From: Streptomyces sp. NRRL F-2664
Lineage (GTDB): Bacteria; Actinomycetota; Actinomycetes; Streptomycetales; Streptomycetaceae
Length of the DNA: 64,000 nucleotides
Reading direction: 5' to 3'
Assembly: GCF_000719345.1 (NCBI RefSeq)
Contig: NZ_JOFX01000019.1
Coordinates: 1-64,000 of the forward strand
Positions within the stretch are counted from its first letter, which is position 1. Each line of letters begins with the position of its first letter. The translations under genes and the position numbers were made by a program. Under the pieces are notes generated by a model. That model saw nothing but the letters and a program-made list of their open reading frames with translations, had not been told where the DNA came from and did not search any database. Shown one piece after another: positions 56,687-64,000 of this stretch.

Positions 56687-57106
56687 TCACGCCTGCTGCT
56701 TGGCGTCGATCTCGGCGATCAGGCCCTCGATGAGGCCCTTGATCTCGTCGCGGATGGGGCGGACGGCCTCCACGCCCTGTCCTGCCGGGTCTTCGAGCTG
56801 CCAGTCGAGGTAGGTCTTGCCGGGGAAGTACGGGCAGGCGTCGCCGCAGCCCATGGTGATGATGTAGTCCGACGCCTGGGCGGCCTCGGGGGTCAGCACC
56901 TTCGGGGTCTGGTCGGAGATGTCGATGCCCAGCTCGGCCATCGCGGCGACGGCGGAGGGGTTGATCTGGTCGCCGGGCATGGAGCCGGCGGAGCGGACCT
57001 CGACGCGGTCGCCGGCGAGGTGGCGCAGGAACCCGGCCGCCATCTGGGAGCGGCCGGCGTTGTGGATGCAGACGAACAGGACGGACGCGAGCGGGTTCGC
57101 GGACAT
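56687..57106 (-). CDS. arsC: Arsenate reductase, thioredoxin/low-Mr phosphatase type
   Basis: 139 residues. P-loop C13-I-H-N-A-G-R-S with the nucleophile, two further cysteines C87 and C91 (MGCGDACPY) for the disulfide relay, and EDPAG holding the general acid Asp. Reduces As(V) to As(III) in the cytoplasm. I chose ATG 57106 because AAGGAAAA lies just upstream, five codons inside a longer form. Divergent from arsR. Confidence 0.94.
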   Translation of the reverse strand: MSANPLASVLFVCIHNAGRSQMAAGFLRHLAGDRVEVRSAGSMPGDQINPSAVAAMAELGIDISDQTPKVLTPEAAQASDYIITMGCGDACPYFPGKTYLDWQLEDPAGQGVEAVRPIRDEIKGLIEGLIAEIDAKQQA

Positions 57107-57179
57107 CGGCTTTTCCTTCATGGCAGGCGCGGCCGGTGCATACCGCGGACCTGCGGCATGATTCAGCCCGGACTGGTGT

Positions 57180-57209
57180 CAGCCCTTGTTGATGTGACAA
57201 TATCAGTCC
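57180..57209. promoter_or_regulatory. arsC/arsR divergent operator and promoter
   Basis: TTGATGTGACAATATCAG contains the TTGAT...ATCA(A/G) inverted repeat typical of ArsR operators. CAATAT (57196-57201) makes a reasonable -10 for arsR, only 8 bases before its first ATG, so the arsR mRNA may be leaderless. The same block would shut off arsC when ArsR is bound. Confidence 0.55.
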
Positions 57210-57524
57210 ATGATGACGTCAGTCGACACTGATCTGATCCGGGTTCTGGCCGACCCGCTCAGGCTCCAGATCGTGACCCTCCTCGCCCGCGAGACGCTCT
57301 GCACCACCCACCTCGTAGAAGAGACCGGTGCCAAGCAGACGAATCTCTCCAACCACCTGAAGGTGCTGCGCGAGGCCGGAGTGGTCGAGACGGAACCCTG
57401 CGGGAGGTACATCTACTACCGCCTGCGCCCGGAGGTCATCGAAGGCATCGCCGGTCAGTTCGCCGACCTCGCGGCGACCGCGCGGGCCACCGCCGAAGCG
57501 AACCTCAAGCGGTCCTGCCCCTAG
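57210..57524 (+). CDS. arsR: ArsR/SmtB-family repressor 1
   Basis: 104 residues with winged helix-turn-helix (GAKQTNLSNHLKVLREAGVV). Cysteines: C31 (TLCTTHL), C64 (EPCGRY) and C103 near the end. The E. coli-type CxC is absent, so arsenite must be sensed through a non-classical set. Two ATGs three bases apart can start it. 41 bases separate its stop from the aquaporin start. Controls the first half of the island. Confidence 0.93.
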   Translation: MMTSVDTDLIRVLADPLRLQIVTLLARETLCTTHLVEETGAKQTNLSNHLKVLREAGVVETEPCGRYIYYRLRPEVIEGIAGQFADLAATARATAEANLKRSCP

Positions 57525-57565
57525 CCATCTTGCGCCTTGCCTCACCTGCCCGAGGAGAACCCGTC

Positions 57566-58348
57566 TTGACCGCCACCGAGCCCGCCGCGAGCGACGCCAT
57601 GGCCGCCGGCGCGTCGCCGCAGCCCGCCCCCGGCGCGACGCCGCCCCGCACCCCGCTGATCGCCCGCGCCGCCGCCGAGCTGGTCGGCACCGCCGCCCTC
57701 GTCGCGATCGTCGTCGGCTCGGGCATCCAGGCCACGAAGCTCACCGACGACGTCGCGCTCCAGCTGCTGGCCAACTCCACCGCCACCGTCTTCGGCCTCG
57801 GCGTCCTGATCGCGCTCCTCGGGCCCGTATCGGGCGCGCACTTCAACCCGGCGGTCACGCTCGCCGAGTGGTGGACCGCCCGCCGCGGCGGCGCGGGCGT
57901 GACCGCCCGCGAGCTCGCCGTGTACGTGCCTTCCCAGATCGTCGGCGCCATCGTGGGCGCGATCCTGGCGGACGCGATGTTCGGTGAACCGCTGGTGAAG
58001 TGGTCCACCCACGACCGCTCCGCCGGCAACCTCCTCCTCGGCGAGGTCGTCGCCACCGCCGGCCTGATCCTCCTGATCTTCGGCCTGGCCCGCACCGACC
58101 GCCTCCGTTTCGCCCCGGTCGCGGTGGCCTCGTACATCGGCGCCGCGTACTGGTTCACCTCCTCCACCTCCTTCGCCAACCCGGCCGTCACCATCGGCCG
58201 CGCCTTCACCGACACCTTCGCCGGTATCGCCCCGTCCTCGGTGGCCGGCTTCATCGGCATGCAGCTGGTGGGTGTCGTCGTCGGCCTGGCGCTGGTCGCG
58301 GTCATCTTTATGCGGGGCAAGACCGGCACCGGAGCGCCTGCGGCATGA
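57566..58348 (+). CDS. aqpS: Aquaporin/MIP-family channel (AqpS-like, arsenite)
   Basis: 260 residues, six membrane helices, both NPA boxes (HFNPAVT and FANPAVT). In Sinorhizobium meliloti an ars-operon aquaporin, AqpS, lets internally made arsenite flow out, replacing ArsB/Acr3. The position between arsR and an ArsO-like gene suggests the same role here. TTG 57566 was chosen because GAGGAG lies 8 bases upstream. No ArsB or Acr3 is visible in the window. Confidence 0.88.
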   Translation: MTATEPAASDAMAAGASPQPAPGATPPRTPLIARAAAELVGTAALVAIVVGSGIQATKLTDDVALQLLANSTATVFGLGVLIALLGPVSGAHFNPAVTLAEWWTARRGGAGVTARELAVYVPSQIVGAIVGAILADAMFGEPLVKWSTHDRSAGNLLLGEVVATAGLILLIFGLARTDRLRFAPVAVASYIGAAYWFTSSTSFANPAVTIGRAFTDTFAGIAPSSVAGFIGMQLVGVVVGLALVAVIFMRGKTGTGAPAA

Positions 58349-59400
58349 GCCGACGTACGGACGTGGTGGTGATCGGCGGCGGCCAGGCCGGGCTCGCCGC
58401 CGGCTACCACCTGCGCCGCCTGGGCATCGAGCACGTCGTCCTCGACGCCCAGGCCGCGCCCGGCGGCGCCTGGCAGCACACCTGGGACTCGCTCCGTCTG
58501 TTCTCCCCGGCCGCGTACTCCTCGCTGCCCGGCCGGCTGATGCCGGTGCAGCAAGGGCAGCTCTACCCCGATGCCGCGCACGTGATGTCGTACCTCGCGG
58601 ACTACGAGAAGCGGCATCAGCTCCCGGTCGAGCGCGGCGTGTGGGTGGACGCGGTCCACCGCGACGGTGCGTTCCTGCGGGTCGAGACCGACTGCGGCGA
58701 CTGGCAGGCCCGTGCTGTCGTCAGCGCCACCGGGACGTGGACCCGCCCGTTCCTGCCGGCCGTCCCGGGCCGCCGGGACTTCGCAGGTCGCCAGCTGCAC
58801 ACGGTCGAGTACCACAGCCCTGCCGAGTTCGCCGGGCAGTGCGTGATCGTGGTGGGCGGCGGGAACTCCGGCGCGCAGATCGCCGCCGACCTCGCCGGTA
58901 CGGCCGACCTCACGTGGGTGACCCAGCGCCCGCCGCGCTACCTGGCCGACGACATCGACGGCCGCGCCCTCTTCGACGCGGCGACCGCCCGCCGTCGCGC
59001 CCTGGACGAAGGCCGCACCGACACCGGCGGCGTTGCCTCGCTCGGCGACATCGTCGCCGTGCCCCCGGTCCGTGCGGCCCGAGACGCCGGACTCCTGACA
59101 GCGAGGCCGATGTTCAGCCGGCTCACCGCCACCGGTGTGCAATGGGCCGACGGCACCGCCGCCGATGTCGACGCGGTCATCTGGTGCACGGGCTTCCGCC
59201 CGGCGCTGGCCCACTTCGCCGGCCTGCGCCTGCGGGGCGCCCGCGGCCACATCGCCACCGACGGCACCAGAGCCGTCGACGAGCCGCGCCTGCACCTGCT
59301 CGGCTACGGCGACTGGACGGGGCCCGCCTCGGCCACCCTGATCGGCGTCGGCCGCCCGGCGCGGGAAGCCGCTCGCCGGATCCGGGAGCTGCTGGCCTGA
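58345..59400 (+). CDS. arsO: ArsO-like flavin-containing monooxygenase
   Basis: 351 residues: FAD motif VVVIGGGQAGLAAGYHLRR, NADPH motif VIVVGGGNSGAQIA, and CTGFRPALAHF near the C-terminus. Belongs to the flavoprotein group found in actinobacterial ars clusters (ArsO), whose reaction is still unsettled. Its ATG overlaps the aquaporin stop by 4 bases, so both are co-translated. Confidence 0.88.
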   Translation: MSRRTDVVVIGGGQAGLAAGYHLRRLGIEHVVLDAQAAPGGAWQHTWDSLRLFSPAAYSSLPGRLMPVQQGQLYPDAAHVMSYLADYEKRHQLPVERGVWVDAVHRDGAFLRVETDCGDWQARAVVSATGTWTRPFLPAVPGRRDFAGRQLHTVEYHSPAEFAGQCVIVVGGGNSGAQIAADLAGTADLTWVTQRPPRYLADDIDGRALFDAATARRRALDEGRTDTGGVASLGDIVAVPPVRAARDAGLLTARPMFSRLTATGVQWADGTAADVDAVIWCTGFRPALAHFAGLRLRGARGHIATDGTRAVDEPRLHLLGYGDWTGPASATLIGVGRPAREAARRIRELLA

Positions 59401-59452
59401 CGGGCCTACGCTGGAGCCGGACCGACCCTGTACGGGCAGGGAGCGAGCAGGC

Positions 59453-60004
59453 ATGGACGGACCAGCGGGCCCGGCCTTCGACGGCCAGGCGGCGCACGCC
59501 GAGCTGGAGCGTGTGCGGGCGGAGTTCCATCAGCTCCTGGGGTCCGCGACGCGGGCCGAGCTGGCCCGGCCGAGCGCGGGGACACGGTGGACCAACGAGC
59601 AGCTGCTGTTCCACATGCTGTTCGGCTACGCGCTCATCCGGCCGCTCCTGGTCGTCTTCGCCCTCTTCGGACGACTGCCGTTGGGTGCGAGCGGTGCCTT
59701 CGCCCGGTTGCTGAATGCCGTGACCACTGCGTTCGACCTCGTCAACTACCTGGGTCCGGTGGGCGGGGCCGGCGTGTGCGGCCGGCGGCGCATGCTGCAG
59801 CTGTTCGACCGCGTCATCGCCGACCTCCACCGACGCATCGACGCCGAGTCTCCGGTCCACCTGGCCCTGCGCATGTACTACCCCACCCGGTGGGATCCCC
59901 TCTTCATGGACGTCATGACCGTGGCCGACCTCTACCGCTACCCGGCCCGGCATTTCGACTTCCACCGGCGACAGCTCACTCTCCCTGCGCCTGGCCAGGG
60001 GTGA
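59453..60004 (+). CDS. DinB-superfamily protein
   Basis: 183 residues, all-helical. N-terminal LLFHMLFGY and C-terminal YPARHFDFHRRQL supply histidines matching the metal triad of DinB-like/mycothiol- or bacillithiol-dependent proteins. Some members are thiol transferases, which would suit arsenic detoxification (speculative). 52 bases after ArsO, same strand, probably same transcript. Confidence 0.78.
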   Translation: MDGPAGPAFDGQAAHAELERVRAEFHQLLGSATRAELARPSAGTRWTNEQLLFHMLFGYALIRPLLVVFALFGRLPLGASGAFARLLNAVTTAFDLVNYLGPVGGAGVCGRRRMLQLFDRVIADLHRRIDAESPVHLALRMYYPTRWDPLFMDVMTVADLYRYPARHFDFHRRQLTLPAPGQG

Positions 60005-60085: not shown

Positions 60086-60583
60086 TCAGACGATCAGAGG
60101 GCTGCGGCGTTCCAGGAGCACGACGTCGCGCCAGACGCCGCAATGGCGGCCGATCCGCTCGCGGGTGCCGATGACCCGGAACCCGGCCCGCTCGTGCAGG
60201 GACAGGCTGGCGGTGTTCTCAGGGAAGATCCCGGACTGGATCGTCCAGATCCCGGCTGCCTCCGTCGAGGCGACCAGTGCCTCCAGCAGGGCACGGGCGA
60301 CACCGCGGCCGCGGGCGTCGGGGTGGACGTAGACGGAGTGCTCGACGACACCGGCATAGGCGCACCGGTCGGAGACCGCGCTCGCCGCCACCCAGCCGAG
60401 GACGGTCTTGTCCTCGTCCAGGGCGACGAAGCGGTGCTCGGCGAGCTTCGCGGCGTCGAACACGGCCCACTCGGGTGCCGTTGTCTCGAAGGTGGCGTTG
60501 CCCTCGTCGATCCCGGCCTGGTAGATCGCGAGGATCTGGTCGGCGTGCTCGGGCAGCGGTGGGGTGATGTGCACTGTGGTCAT
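60086..60583 (-). CDS. arsN: GNAT acetyltransferase, phosphinothricin/arsinothricin (ArsN)-type
   Basis: 165 residues of the PAT-like GNAT family: IDEGNATFETTAPEW, VEHSVYVHPDARGRGVARALLEAL (acetyl-CoA motif A, RGRGVA), LHERAGFRVIGTRERIG. ArsN1 enzymes of this type acetylate the arsenic antibiotic arsinothricin, and relatives act on glufosinate. Its ATG overlaps the stop of the second ArsR by 4 bases, supporting an arsenic role. Activity on other amines cannot be excluded. Confidence 0.87.
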   Translation of the reverse strand: MTTVHITPPLPEHADQILAIYQAGIDEGNATFETTAPEWAVFDAAKLAEHRFVALDEDKTVLGWVAASAVSDRCAYAGVVEHSVYVHPDARGRGVARALLEALVASTEAAGIWTIQSGIFPENTASLSLHERAGFRVIGTRERIGRHCGVWRDVVLLERRSPLIV

Positions 60584-60948
60584 GCCGTCTTCGCGGCGCC
60601 GGCCAGCAGCGCACCCATCGCGGCGAGCACGGAGGGCTCGACCCGGTAGTACACCCATGTACCGCGCCGCTCGGAGGACAGCAGGCCGGCCTCCTTCAGC
60701 TTCTTCAGGTGGTGGGAGACCGTCGGCTGCGAGACACCCACGTCGGAGATGTCGCACACGCACGCCTCGCCGCCCTCGTGGGAGGCGACGGCGGAGAACA
60801 GCCGCAGACGCACGGGGTCGCCGAGCGCCTTGAACATCTTCGCTGCGACCTCGGCCTCGTCCGCCGACATCGGGCGCTCGTTCAGGGGCGGGCAGCACGG
60901 CGCGACGGCCTCGGGCTCCAGCAGCGGCAACACCTTCGCATTCGACAT
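60580..60948 (-). CDS. ArsR-family repressor 2 with N-terminal Cys pair
   Basis: 122 residues. C18-C19 in an N-terminal extension plus C63 and C65 (EACVCD) in the DNA-binding fold. The Cys-Cys plus helix Cys layout recalls the Corynebacterium glutamicum ArsR site (C15/C16/C55). Winged helix SQPTVSHHLKKLKEAGLL. The ATG at 60948 was chosen over one six codons up because the latter overlaps the operator. Governs itself, the GNAT gene and probably the divergent Cys-Cys peptide operon. Confidence 0.92.
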   Translation of the reverse strand: MSNAKVLPLLEPEAVAPCCPPLNERPMSADEAEVAAKMFKALGDPVRLRLFSAVASHEGGEACVCDISDVGVSQPTVSHHLKKLKEAGLLSSERRGTWVYYRVEPSVLAAMGALLAGAAKTA

Positions 60949-60950
60949 AC

Positions 60951-60962
60951 GTCTATGTTGAC
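60951..60962. promoter_or_regulatory. Putative ArsR2 operator, left copy
   Basis: GTCTATGTTGAC, 2 bases upstream of the ArsR2 start codon; an identical 12-mer occurs at 61168-61179. The surrounding ATAC...ACATGTCGA is roughly palindromic. Confidence 0.6.
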
Positions 60963-61167
60963 ACATGTCGAACTAGAAGGGGAAGGGCGCCGCCATCGTC
61001 CCACCTGTGCAAGAGGTGGCGAGCCAGGCGGCGGGCGGCCCGCCGGGCGTCCCGGGCCGACACCACGCAGAGAGGTCGAGGACAGGCTTCGCTGCCACTC
61101 CGGATCACCGCGTCCACCGCCCGCGCCGCGTCGACACGCTCATGAACAACCCTCGAATTTGATGAAT
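60963..61167. other. Divergent spacer between ArsR2 and the Cys-Cys peptide
   Basis: About 200 bases between the two operator copies. A minus-strand open frame here (core VDAARAVDAVIRSG, then RRAARRLARHLLHRW) reads like Arg/Ala-rich protein, but has no start codon or ribosome site and would overlap the operator. I treat it as debris or non-coding. Confidence 0.45.
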
Positions 61168-61179
61168 GTCTATGTTGAC
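61168..61179. promoter_or_regulatory. Putative ArsR2 operator, right copy
   Basis: Second exact copy of GTCTATGTTGAC, 70 bases before the Cys-Cys peptide start, in a locally AT-rich stretch suited to a promoter. Confidence 0.6.
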
Positions 61180-61249
61180 GCTCATCGAAGCAGGTGCCAT
61201 GCTGGGAGCGCAGGATATCGACAGTCATCGAAACACCGAGGGAGTCGTC

Positions 61250-61429
61250 ATGACCGAGCCCGTCACCCCCGTCACCGAAGCCGCCTCCTGTTGCGGCACG
61301 GCCCCCGCACAGCCCGCCGCCGCGTCCTCCCCATGCTGCGGCACCAGCGAGCGGGCGGACGAAGCCGGAGCCTGCTGCGACCCGCAGGCCAAGCGCGAAG
61401 CCGTCACCACCGGGGCGGGCTGCTGCTGA
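61250..61429 (+). CDS. 59-residue peptide with four Cys-Cys pairs (putative arsenic-binding protein)
   Basis: Pairs at C14-C15, C29-C30, C42-C43 and C58-C59, spaced 13-16 residues apart, with no other Cys and no His. Repeating units read (S/P/A)CC(G/D). Linkers are Ala/Thr/Pro/Glu-rich and likely unstructured. GAGGGAG precedes the ATG. First gene of the peptide/flavoprotein/MFS unit behind a shared ArsR2 operator. Vicinal cysteine pairs bind As(III) in ArsD and ArsM, so a chaperone or sponge role is plausible but unproven. I know of no name for it. Confidence 0.8.
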   Translation: MTEPVTPVTEAASCCGTAPAQPAAASSPCCGTSERADEAGACCDPQAKREAVTTGAGCC

Positions 61430-61497
61430 CCACCCCAGCCCGCCCCGCCTACCTGACAAGCCCACCCACCTGCTGCACAAGACCCCGGAGACACGCC

Positions 61498-62859
61498 ATG
61501 AGCCAGACCACCACGAACCTGCCCGTCGTCGTCATCGGGGCCGGCCCCGCCGGACTGGCCGCCGCCGCCCACCTCGAAGACCGCAGCCTGGACTTCCTCG
61601 TCCTGGAGGCCGGCCCGCACGCCGGGGCCGCGCCCCGCGACTGGGCCCACGTACGGCTGTTCTCGCGTTGGGATGAGGTCGTCGACCCGGCCGCCGAGAA
61701 GCTCCTGGCCCCGACCGGCTGGGTCAAGCCCGACGCCGCCTCCTACCCCACGGGCGGGGACTGGGCCGAGCTCTACCTCCAGCCCCTCGCCGACATCCTG
61801 GGCGACCGCGTCCGCTTCGGCGCCCGCGTCACCGGGGTCTCCCGCACCGGCCGCGACCGCATCGTCGACGCCGACCGCGACGCCCAGCCCTTCGTCATCC
61901 ACGTCGAGCACGCCGACGGCCTTGAGGAGCGCGTCTTCGCCCGCGCGGTGATCGACGCCTCCGGAACCTGGTCCACCCCGAGCCCGGCAGGCGCCGGCGG
62001 ACTGCACGCACTCGGCGAGAAGGCCGCCGCCGACCGGATCGCCTACCGCGTCCCCGACCTCAAGGACCCGGCCGTCCGCGCCCGGTACGCCGGCAAGCGC
62101 ACCGCCATCATCGGCTCCGGCGCCTCCGCCTTCACCGCCCTCGCCCACCTCGCCGACCTCGCCAGGACCGACGACGGCACCGGCACCCACGCCACCTGGA
62201 TCCTGCGCCGCGGGATCTCCGGCTCCACCTTCGGCGGCGGCGAAGCCGATCAACTCCCCGCCCGTGGCGCACTCGGCCTCGCGGCCAAGGCCGCGGTGGA
62301 TGGCGGCTATGCCGACGCTGTCACCGGCTTCCGCACCGACGCCATCGAACGCGACGCCGACGGCCGCCTGGTCCTCATCGGCGAGGACGGCCGCCGCCTC
62401 GACCCGGTGGACGAGGTCATCGTCCTCACCGGCTTCCGCCCCGACCTGTCCTTCCTGGACGAGCTGCGCCTGGGCCTCGACGAGCGCCTCCAGGCTCCCC
62501 TCGCCCTGGCCCCGCTGATCGACCCCAACCAGCACTCCTGCGGCACCGTCTACCCCCACGGCCAGGCCGAACTCTCCCACCCCGAGAAGGACGTCTACCT
62601 CGTCGGCATGAAGTCCTACGGCCGCGCCCCCACCTTCCTCGCCATGACCGGCTACGAGCAGGTCCGCTCCATCGCCGCCCACCTCGCCGGCGACCAGGAA
62701 GCCGCCGAACGCGTCGAACTCACCCTGCCCGAGACCGGCGTATGCGGCGGCGCGGGCCTCTTCGACCAGCCCGAGACCACCGAGCAGAGCGGTGGCGGCT
62801 GCTGCGCGGCCCCGGCCACCCTCACCATCGGCGCGCCCGCCACCTCCGGCGGCTGCTGA
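61498..62859 (+). CDS. FAD/NAD(P)-binding oxidoreductase with cysteine-rich tail
   Basis: 453 residues: FAD motif VVVIGAGPAGLAAAAHL, second dinucleotide motif TAIIGSGASAFTALAHL, and VLTGFRPDLSFL. It resembles ArsO-type flavin monooxygenases but is longer. The last 40 residues depart from the family and hold C416, C435-C436 and C453 in a Gly/Ala/Thr-rich context, echoing the neighbouring Cys-Cys peptide. GGAG lies 10 bases before the ATG. Six bases separate it from the MFS gene. Confidence 0.87.
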   Translation: MSQTTTNLPVVVIGAGPAGLAAAAHLEDRSLDFLVLEAGPHAGAAPRDWAHVRLFSRWDEVVDPAAEKLLAPTGWVKPDAASYPTGGDWAELYLQPLADILGDRVRFGARVTGVSRTGRDRIVDADRDAQPFVIHVEHADGLEERVFARAVIDASGTWSTPSPAGAGGLHALGEKAAADRIAYRVPDLKDPAVRARYAGKRTAIIGSGASAFTALAHLADLARTDDGTGTHATWILRRGISGSTFGGGEADQLPARGALGLAAKAAVDGGYADAVTGFRTDAIERDADGRLVLIGEDGRRLDPVDEVIVLTGFRPDLSFLDELRLGLDERLQAPLALAPLIDPNQHSCGTVYPHGQAELSHPEKDVYLVGMKSYGRAPTFLAMTGYEQVRSIAAHLAGDQEAAERVELTLPETGVCGGAGLFDQPETTEQSGGGCCAAPATLTIGAPATSGGC

Positions 62860-62864
62860 CCCGA

Positions 62865-64000
62865 ATGACCAACACCAAGGCCGGCGTGGCCGCGACCGGG
62901 ACGGGAGTCCGGTCGCGGCCACGCGCCGCCCTGCCCGCCCTGTGCGCCACGCAGATCACCAGCTGGGGCGTCCTCTACTACGCCTTCCCGGTCCTCAACC
63001 CCACCATCACCGAGACCACCGGCTGGCCCGCGGGCGCGACAACCGCCGCCTTCTCCGCAGCCCTCATCGTCTCCGCCATCGTCGGCATCTACGTCGGCCG
63101 CGTTGTGGATCGCCGCGGCCCGCATGCCGTCATGACCGCCGGCTCCGTCCTCGGGCCCCTCAGCCTCCTCGTCGTGGCCGCCGCCCCCCACCTCGCCGTC
63201 TTCACGGCCGGGTGGCTGCTCGCCGGGGCGTCGATGGCCGCCACGTTCTACCAGCCCGCCTTCGCCGCCCTCACCCGCTGGTGGGCCCCCGACCACATCC
63301 GCGCACTCACGATCGTCACCCTCGCCGGTGGCCTCGCCTCCACCCTCTTCGCACCCCTGACCGCGGTCCTCGCCGACCACCTGTCCTGGCGCGGCACCTA
63401 CGCCGTCCTCGCGGGCATCCTCGCCGCCATAACGGTTCCGGCCCACGCCCTCGCCCTCAAGGCGCCCTGGCCCACAGCCCCTCCCCACCTGCCGAACATC
63501 ACCGGTGGCCACGAACACGTCGTACGCAGCCGGCCCTTCCGGATGTTGGCCGTCACCTTCACCCTCTCCGCGTTCGCGATGTACGCCGTCGTCATCGGCC
63601 TCGTCCCCCTCCTGCTGGAACGCGGCTACACCACCACCCAAGCCGCATGGGCCCTCGGCCTCGGAGGCGCCGGACAGACCCTCGGCCGCACCCTCTACGC
63701 CGGCCTCGCCCGCCACCTCGGCGTCACGGCCCGCACCGTCACCCTGATCGCCCTCGGCGCCCTCACCACCGCAGCCTTCGCCACCCTGGCCGGCCCCTAC
63801 GCCCTCCTCATCGCGGTATCCGTCCTCGCCGGGGTGATCCGCGGCAACCTCACCCTCCTCCAGGCCACCGCCGTCACCGACCGCTGGGGCACCACCCACT
63901 ACGGCCGACTCTCCGGACTCCTCGGCGCACCGGCCCACGCAGCCGCCGCCCTCGCCCCCTTCGCCGGCGCCCTCCTCGCCAAGCCCCTCGGCGGCTACCC
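62865..64000 (+). CDS. MFS transporter, 3' end beyond the window
   Basis: 378 codons visible without a stop. About 11 membrane helices of a 12-helix major-facilitator protein; motif A-like GRVVDRRGPHAV between helices 2 and 3. N-terminal cytoplasmic tail of about 22 residues. Last gene of the Cys-Cys peptide unit, so a likely efflux pump for an arsenical or arsenical conjugate. Known ars MFS proteins (ArsJ, ArsK, ArsP-linked) are possible relatives; the subtype is not clear from sequence alone. Confidence 0.88.
   Translation, partial: MTNTKAGVAATGTGVRSRPRAALPALCATQITSWGVLYYAFPVLNPTITETTGWPAGATTAAFSAALIVSAIVGIYVGRVVDRRGPHAVMTAGSVLGPLSLLVVAAAPHLAVFTAGWLLAGASMAATFYQPAFAALTRWWAPDHIRALTIVTLAGGLASTLFAPLTAVLADHLSWRGTYAVLAGILAAITVPAHALALKAPWPTAPPHLPNITGGHEHVVRSRPFRMLAVTFTLSAFAMYAVVIGLVPLLLERGYTTTQAAWALGLGGAGQTLGRTLYAGLARHLGVTARTVTLIALGALTTAAFATLAGPYALLIAVSVLAGVIRGNLTLLQATAVTDRWGTTHYGRLSGLLGAPAHAAAALAPFAGALLAKPLGGY

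Follow-up and report, generated by a model that had tools for sequence, protein, structure and literature searches.

What does a small peptide built around four pairs of adjacent cysteines (CC) do directly before a flavoprotein gene in the arsenic region of Streptomyces sp. NRRL F-2664? The question arises from a stretch of 64,000 nucleotides (nt), hereafter the window, which comprises positions 1-64000 of contig 19 in a genome of 7.98 Mb and 672 contigs, and in which the original prediction had proposed a candidate arsenic system. With considerable confidence, the operon that holds both genes likely serves an arsenical function, and the peptide is a conserved but optional accessory. The two genes at the centre of the question are as follows.

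61250..61429, forward strand: CC-pair peptide of 59 amino acids (aa), the first gene of the operon, with GGGAG 5 nt upstream of its start

61498..62859, forward strand: flavoprotein of the FAD/NAD(P) type, 453 aa, with a C-terminal tail, predicted to be disordered, that carries C416, C435-C436 and C453

The predicted 59-residue peptide is real. Its four CC pairs lie at residues 14-15, 29-30, 42-43 and 58-59, its cysteines are conserved, and it is the only one of the 313 open reading frames (ORFs) of 15-110 aa in the window with at least three CC. An alternative start in frame at 61166 would give 87 aa. Of the ten DNA copies of the gene described below, six keep GGGAG at the ribosome site, two have GGAG and two GGAAG. 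As a set of neighbourhoods I used the best 80 GTDB loci (Streptomycetaceae) among the flavoprotein matches listed, and of their 7094 ORFs in the same size range only three have at least three CC, one being the same peptide (L016). Among 28 peptide sequences C14, C15, C29, C30, C42, C58 and C59 never vary, and C43 is kept in at least 90%; the linkers differ in length and the CC pairs stay. Pooled dN/dS, from seven of the ten DNA copies, is 0.50. A protein search with the peptide returned 27 clusters including its own, the 24 named ones all being Streptomyces proteins labelled hypothetical or uncharacterised. Scans of Pfam and NCBIfam at E ≤ 0.001, with NCBIfam membership decided by each model's own cut-off, placed it in no family of either, a 59-aa cysteine-rich sequence being a difficult query. 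Judged by these scans the peptide belongs to no named family, and a search of open-access titles and abstract openings, with subscription papers mostly outside its scope, found no literature on such a peptide.

How widely is the peptide distributed, and in what company? In a sample of 392 Streptomyces genomes I found a strong peptide match (E ≤ 3.8e-24) in nine and the flavoprotein (E ≤ 1e-100) in 218. All nine strong matches lie 50-72 nt (stop codon counted) upstream of the flavoprotein gene on the same strand, and a tenth copy, in L016 of the best 80 loci, likewise stands directly before that gene on the same strand. A strong match is absent from all 174 flavoprotein-free Streptomyces genomes (Fisher p 0.005, with kinship among genomes ignored). 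Co-occurrence across genomes had been set as a test of the prediction, and it holds in one direction, from peptide to flavoprotein (nine of nine, plus L016), but not in the other, as 209 of the 218 flavoprotein-bearing genomes have no strong peptide match. Thus, the peptide is dispensable for the enzyme. Weak matches in G236, in G351 and at a second site in G042 (E 1.6e-4 to 8.5e-4) were excluded from the nine; the flavoprotein-bearing genomes include neither G236 nor G351. Outside Streptomyces (296 genomes, 198 genera) there was no strong match besides the window's own, and there were two weak ones; plasmid records gave no match. A tree of 97 flavoproteins (one duplicate removed and five loci skipped; bootstrap not settled) requires at least three changes to place the ten peptide loci, and I reject the peptide as a single vertical character; the tree calls for a gain with losses, or for transfers. 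An MFS gene lies downstream in nine of the ten peptide loci, in L016 behind an ArsI gene.

The flavoprotein that follows the peptide does end in the predicted Cys, CC, Cys tail. Its cysteines are residues 348, 416, 435, 436 and 453, the tail pattern being C..CC..C, and residues 409-453 have pLDDT < 50 in a structure model and are thus predicted to be disordered. A tail with one or two CC was present in all 76 parsed Streptomycetaceae loci of the best 80. Relatives of the protein are mostly annotated as FAD-dependent oxidoreductase or NAD(P)-binding domain-containing protein. It is not ArsO, since it scores 59 bits against the NF040505 cut-off of 425, and no model named ArsV or ArsW was among the NCBIfam matches of the window proteins. 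Bacillota flavoproteins from Cytobacillus (L088:4848-6236) and Mammaliicoccus (L091:242-1612) have an N-terminal Cys-bearing extension (..NECCGTN.. and ..NCSQEETTCSS..), and beside each I saw by eye a CC-free ORF of 68-69 aa and of similar appearance, after the gene in Cytobacillus (L088:6302-6511) and before it in Mammaliicoccus (L091:2-208). The flavoprotein tail of L186, which is from the same family as G399, carries repeats of the SCCG type with four or more CC pairs, in a style like that of the free peptide.

A second CC micropeptide, MSTGCCDDECCEDGQDCC, occurs in L147 and L152 (G399:C10), which come from another family of the same class. It is an 18-aa ORF with three CC pairs, about 190 nt upstream of the FAD motif in the reverse complement of L147 and in the same place in L152. 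It stands directly before the flavoprotein, has a purine-rich ribosome-like site, and is unrelated in sequence to the 59-aa peptide. By BLAST its surroundings include genes like those of ArsR and ArsC and a stretch resembling an aquaporin, and by eye there is a thioredoxin-reductase-like ORF. That MSTGCCDDECCEDGQDCC precedes the same enzyme in a different family of actinobacteria hints that free CC peptides may have arisen more than once. A scan of 121 distinct flavoprotein loci, a set that lies apart from the window and in which L130 was missed, gave nine CC-rich small ORFs on the same strand, namely MSTGCCDDECCEDGQDCC and eight Streptomyces peptides, and none on the reverse strand. In the set of short-alignment loci described below, a scan also listed Cys-rich ORFs, which in L187, L203 and L205 lie 0.8-1.5 kb upstream and in L201 just downstream; I take these to be chance reading frames.

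Could a free peptide replace, in trans, a CC that the tail has lost? L147 combines a CC-less tail with a CC micropeptide, and the 36 other readable loci (39 scanned, two unreadable) have tail CC and no such peptide. None of the nine CC-less tails among 19 readable loci of a set described below has a CC peptide beside the gene. I reject such substitution as a rule because only one of ten CC-less tails comes with a CC peptide. I also reject the peptide as an ArsI remnant: ArsI comes after the flavoprotein and the peptide before it, and L016 has both. By eye the peptide resembles an alphaproteobacterial tail of the form CCGGPAP..ACC..D..AK..GKSGCGC, and the hhalign score between peptide and tail is 22.5, which was reached by two of 100 column shuffles and six of 100 shuffles of the non-Cys positions. 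With composition correction, HMMER scores for real and shuffled tails overlapped; without it, the best real tail, that of L087, reached 19.3 bits against 16.0 for the best of 20 shuffles per protein, and the other two alphaproteobacterial tails did not rise above the shuffles. Descent of the peptide from a detached enzyme tail is thus suggestive only.

The remaining parts of the operon and its divergent partner are these.

60086..60583, reverse strand: ArsN1-like GNAT acetyltransferase, overlapping the arsR stop

60580..60948, reverse strand: ArsR-family repressor, 122 aa, with CC at 18-19 and CVC at 63-65

60932..60972, no strand: operator-like repeat, copy 1, over the arsR start and within an imperfect palindrome

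61149..61189, no strand: operator-like repeat, copy 2, ending 60 nt before the peptide start and 73% identical to copy 1

62865..64000, forward strand: ArsK-related MFS transporter, running past the window end in the contig, 406 aa in all

A divergent ArsR with a CC sensor pair had been predicted, and it is there: the protein passes NCBIfam NF033788 (ArsR/SmtB; 93.4 bits, cut-off 55), and its best solved relative is 6j0e, entitled 'Arsenic responsive repressor ArsR' (E 1.7e-21), in which the CC aligns at 18-19. Its four cysteines are identical in all 69 aligned relatives from the best 80 loci. The 41-nt direct repeat precedes both transcription units, arsR and the peptide. In the 1.8 kb ahead of the flavoprotein, 23 of 31 related loci have two copies of its core, CTATGTTGAC with at most one base changed, seven have one and one (L013) has none; the nine other peptide loci in this set have two copies each. 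These operator-like repeats are putative ArsR sites. Near the operon I found no sigma-70-type promoter, terminator pattern, tRNA or Rfam match. The ArsN-like acetyltransferase is present too, but almost wholly outside the 60580..64000 span first given to the system, and its best model in the list, ArsN1 family A (NF040503), gives 134.6 bits, below the cut-off of 170. The MFS gene starts 5 nt after the flavoprotein stop, and its product scores 144.8 bits with the ArsK model NF033733 (378 of 406 aa scanned), below the cut-off of 400.

What ties this gene set to arsenic? Counts in the best 80 loci are BLAST matches at fixed distances with contig-end loci kept, and are therefore lower bounds: beside the flavoprotein stood a divergent ArsR in at least 70, an MFS gene in at least 34, ArsN in at least 22 and ArsI in at least 18. 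The place of the transporter as third member of the system is thus weaker than first proposed, its gene following in nine of the ten peptide loci but in only 34 of the 80. From 133 plasmid records I picked nine flavoprotein loci in three phyla for taxonomic spread and inspected 5-6 kb of each. Eight have a named ars gene within that distance, the ninth, from Rhodococcus opacus, offers just a regulator of the ArsR family and an MFS gene, and in seven of the nine an MFS gene follows the flavoprotein. In Ensifer adhaerens (L086) the gene after the flavoprotein is ArsK (515 bits, cut-off 400), and in Streptomyces sp. FR-008 the flavoprotein/MFS pair lies beside arsR, arsB, arsO, arsC and trxB genes. 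The neighbouring ArsI matches the solved structures 5d4f and 5c4p (E ~1e-58), which I take to be those of the studied C-As lyase. In sister operons (L012, L016, L023, L032 and others) ArsI ends in a CC..CC tail that lies beyond residues 1-123, the part covered by the structures. FAD-dependent oxidoreductase and ArsN-like genes also occur in Pseudarthrobacter ars operons, with no function assigned in the available part of that report (PMC6256500).

How might the parts work together? The reading that I favour, tentatively and at just short of an even chance, is an ArsR-controlled operon in which a dithiol peptide captures, the flavoprotein oxidises and the MFS protein exports trivalent arsenicals. 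The substrates would most likely be organic trivalent arsenicals such as methylarsenite, and As(III) or Sb(III) may serve too. Binding of a trivalent arsenical to the Cys site of ArsR would release the repressor, and the floppy CC peptide would then hold the arsenical in dithiol adducts, each CC pair forming one, shielding cell thiols and concentrating the ligand. The flavoprotein, with a CC tail of its own, would take over the arsenical and oxidise it, with NADPH, FAD and O2, to a less toxic pentavalent form, and the ArsK-related MFS protein would export the product or the substrate. The peptide would be the free counterpart of the enzyme's disordered Cys tail, as soluble metallochaperones are to the tethered metal-binding domains of their pumps. 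Methylarsenite resistance through ArsV and ArsW was reportedly described by Chen et al. in 2021. I infer capture, oxidation and export from the gene set, from vicinal cysteines, which are described as binding methylarsenite in ArsI and in certain ArsR proteins (PMC6514093), and from the ArsV/ArsW scheme, in which a flavin oxidase of trivalent organoarsenicals and an exporter give methylarsenite resistance (PMC10080717; cited in PMC9144182 and PMC11719878), as far as the available parts of these papers go. A genuine hand-over of the arsenical from peptide to enzyme seems rather unlikely, and it is just as doubtful that the peptide founds a class of free arsenical-relay peptides, which would pass organoarsenical dithiol adducts to the CC tail of a flavin oxidase. 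If the peptide does bind and pass on trivalent organoarsenicals, it would be the first arsenic chaperone that I know of to serve a redox enzyme rather than a pump, and would suggest a reason why a widespread family of ars flavoproteins keeps fast-changing, disordered Cys-pair tails.

Several findings weigh against this reading. At 20 loci picked for short alignments, 9 of the 19 readable tails have no CC at all, and so the tail CC is not essential. Among the fold matches listed, disulfide reductases and monooxygenases fit the flavoprotein about equally, so that the fold does not set the direction of the redox reaction. In 209 Streptomyces genomes the enzyme occurs with no strong peptide match. 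In one peptide locus of the ten, L122, no MFS gene was found downstream. In 46 of the best 80 loci the MFS gene is absent or unrecognised downstream, and the downstream ORFs of 20 of these, viewed by eye, gave no clear conserved partner. Finally, homology between peptide and tail shows no clear gain over shuffled controls.

The strongest rival would make the peptide a plain sink, that is, a metallothionein-like thiol buffer for As(III), Sb(III), organoarsenicals and other soft metals that makes no contact with the flavoprotein, and would explain co-transcription by a benefit under the same stress. It is possible, if on balance doubtful. In its favour, the peptide is optional and has come or gone at least three times along the flavoprotein tree, its linkers vary in length and its CC pairs are kept, and the enzyme retains its own tail CC in the parsed peptide loci. 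However, it sits poorly with ten DNA copies that are strictly directly before the flavoprotein gene and with the occurrence, in L147 and L152, of another CC micropeptide, unrelated in sequence, at that same place. I consider it quite improbable that the flavoprotein is instead a reductase, likened to thioredoxin or bacillithiol disulfide reductase, which would recycle oxidised CC pairs of the peptide or of another thiol partner and so keep the arsenic-binding thiol pool reduced. Least probable of all is an operon for another soft metal or for oxidative stress that came into the ars region through clustering of resistance genes. In L091 the neighbours of the flavoprotein do include merR and merA besides ars genes, and in L090 merA and heavy-metal pumps lie nearby. 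However, an ArsK over its cut-off directly downstream in L086, ArsI adjoining the flavoprotein in 18 of the best 80 loci, ArsN-like genes alongside in 22, and an ArsR that shares its Cys pair with the arsenic repressor 6j0e all speak for arsenic.

How does the capture, oxidation and export scheme compare with known systems? ArsD is a small vicinal-Cys arsenic metallochaperone whose partner is the ArsA ATPase. The peptide is alike in being small, in its vicinal cysteines and in the proposal that it would pass trivalent arsenic to a partner, but it has no Pfam ArsD match and its partner would be the flavoprotein rather than ArsA. Mercuric reductase, MerA, has a C-terminal Cys pair, an N-terminal feeder domain and a redox CxxC. 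By description, the flavoprotein is similar in having a Cys pair at a mobile C-terminus and, in some cases, a Cys feeder apart from the enzyme, but it has no redox CxxC. ArsO is a flavoprotein of the same broad two-dinucleotide-binding kind, from which the window protein differs in its score, given above, and its Cys tail. ArsK, an arsenite and methylarsenite efflux MFS protein, is the best model for the window transporter and, in curated form, follows the Ensifer flavoprotein, although the window protein attains only 144.8 of the 400 bits required. The sister-operon ArsI, with its CC..CC tail, resembles the peptide, which differs in being free-standing and without an enzyme domain; ArsI acts on methylarsenite, according to the available part of one report (PMC6514093). 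The closest plan is that of ArsV and ArsW, again a flavin oxidase with an exporter, a likeness drawn from the description in the available part of the source and not from reference sequences. Thus, the original statement that no such system had been described stands for the peptide, within the literature searched, but not for the pairing of flavin oxidase and exporter. Occurring as it does in 218 of the 392 sampled Streptomyces genomes, the flavoprotein merits assignment, and it may be a means by which soil actinobacteria commonly detoxify trivalent arsenicals.

The window also contains a second ars block, at 56687-60004.

56687-57121, reverse strand: ArsC of the LMWPc type

57210-57524, forward strand: ArsR

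57530-58348, forward strand: aquaporin-like channel

58345-59400, forward strand: true ArsO (558 bits, NF040505 cut-off 425)

59453-60004, forward strand: DinB-superfamily protein

In the genome as a whole, I was unable to find an acr3 match (7 of 14 control genomes were positive) or, in a search without a positive control, an ArsI match; one ArsB-family protein is encoded on contig C9 at 93361-94371. A second, divergent ArsO-like flavoprotein, with about 40% identity to the window ArsO, sits between arsR and the flavoprotein gene in at least 16 of the best 80 loci (L007, L023, L029, L085 and others).

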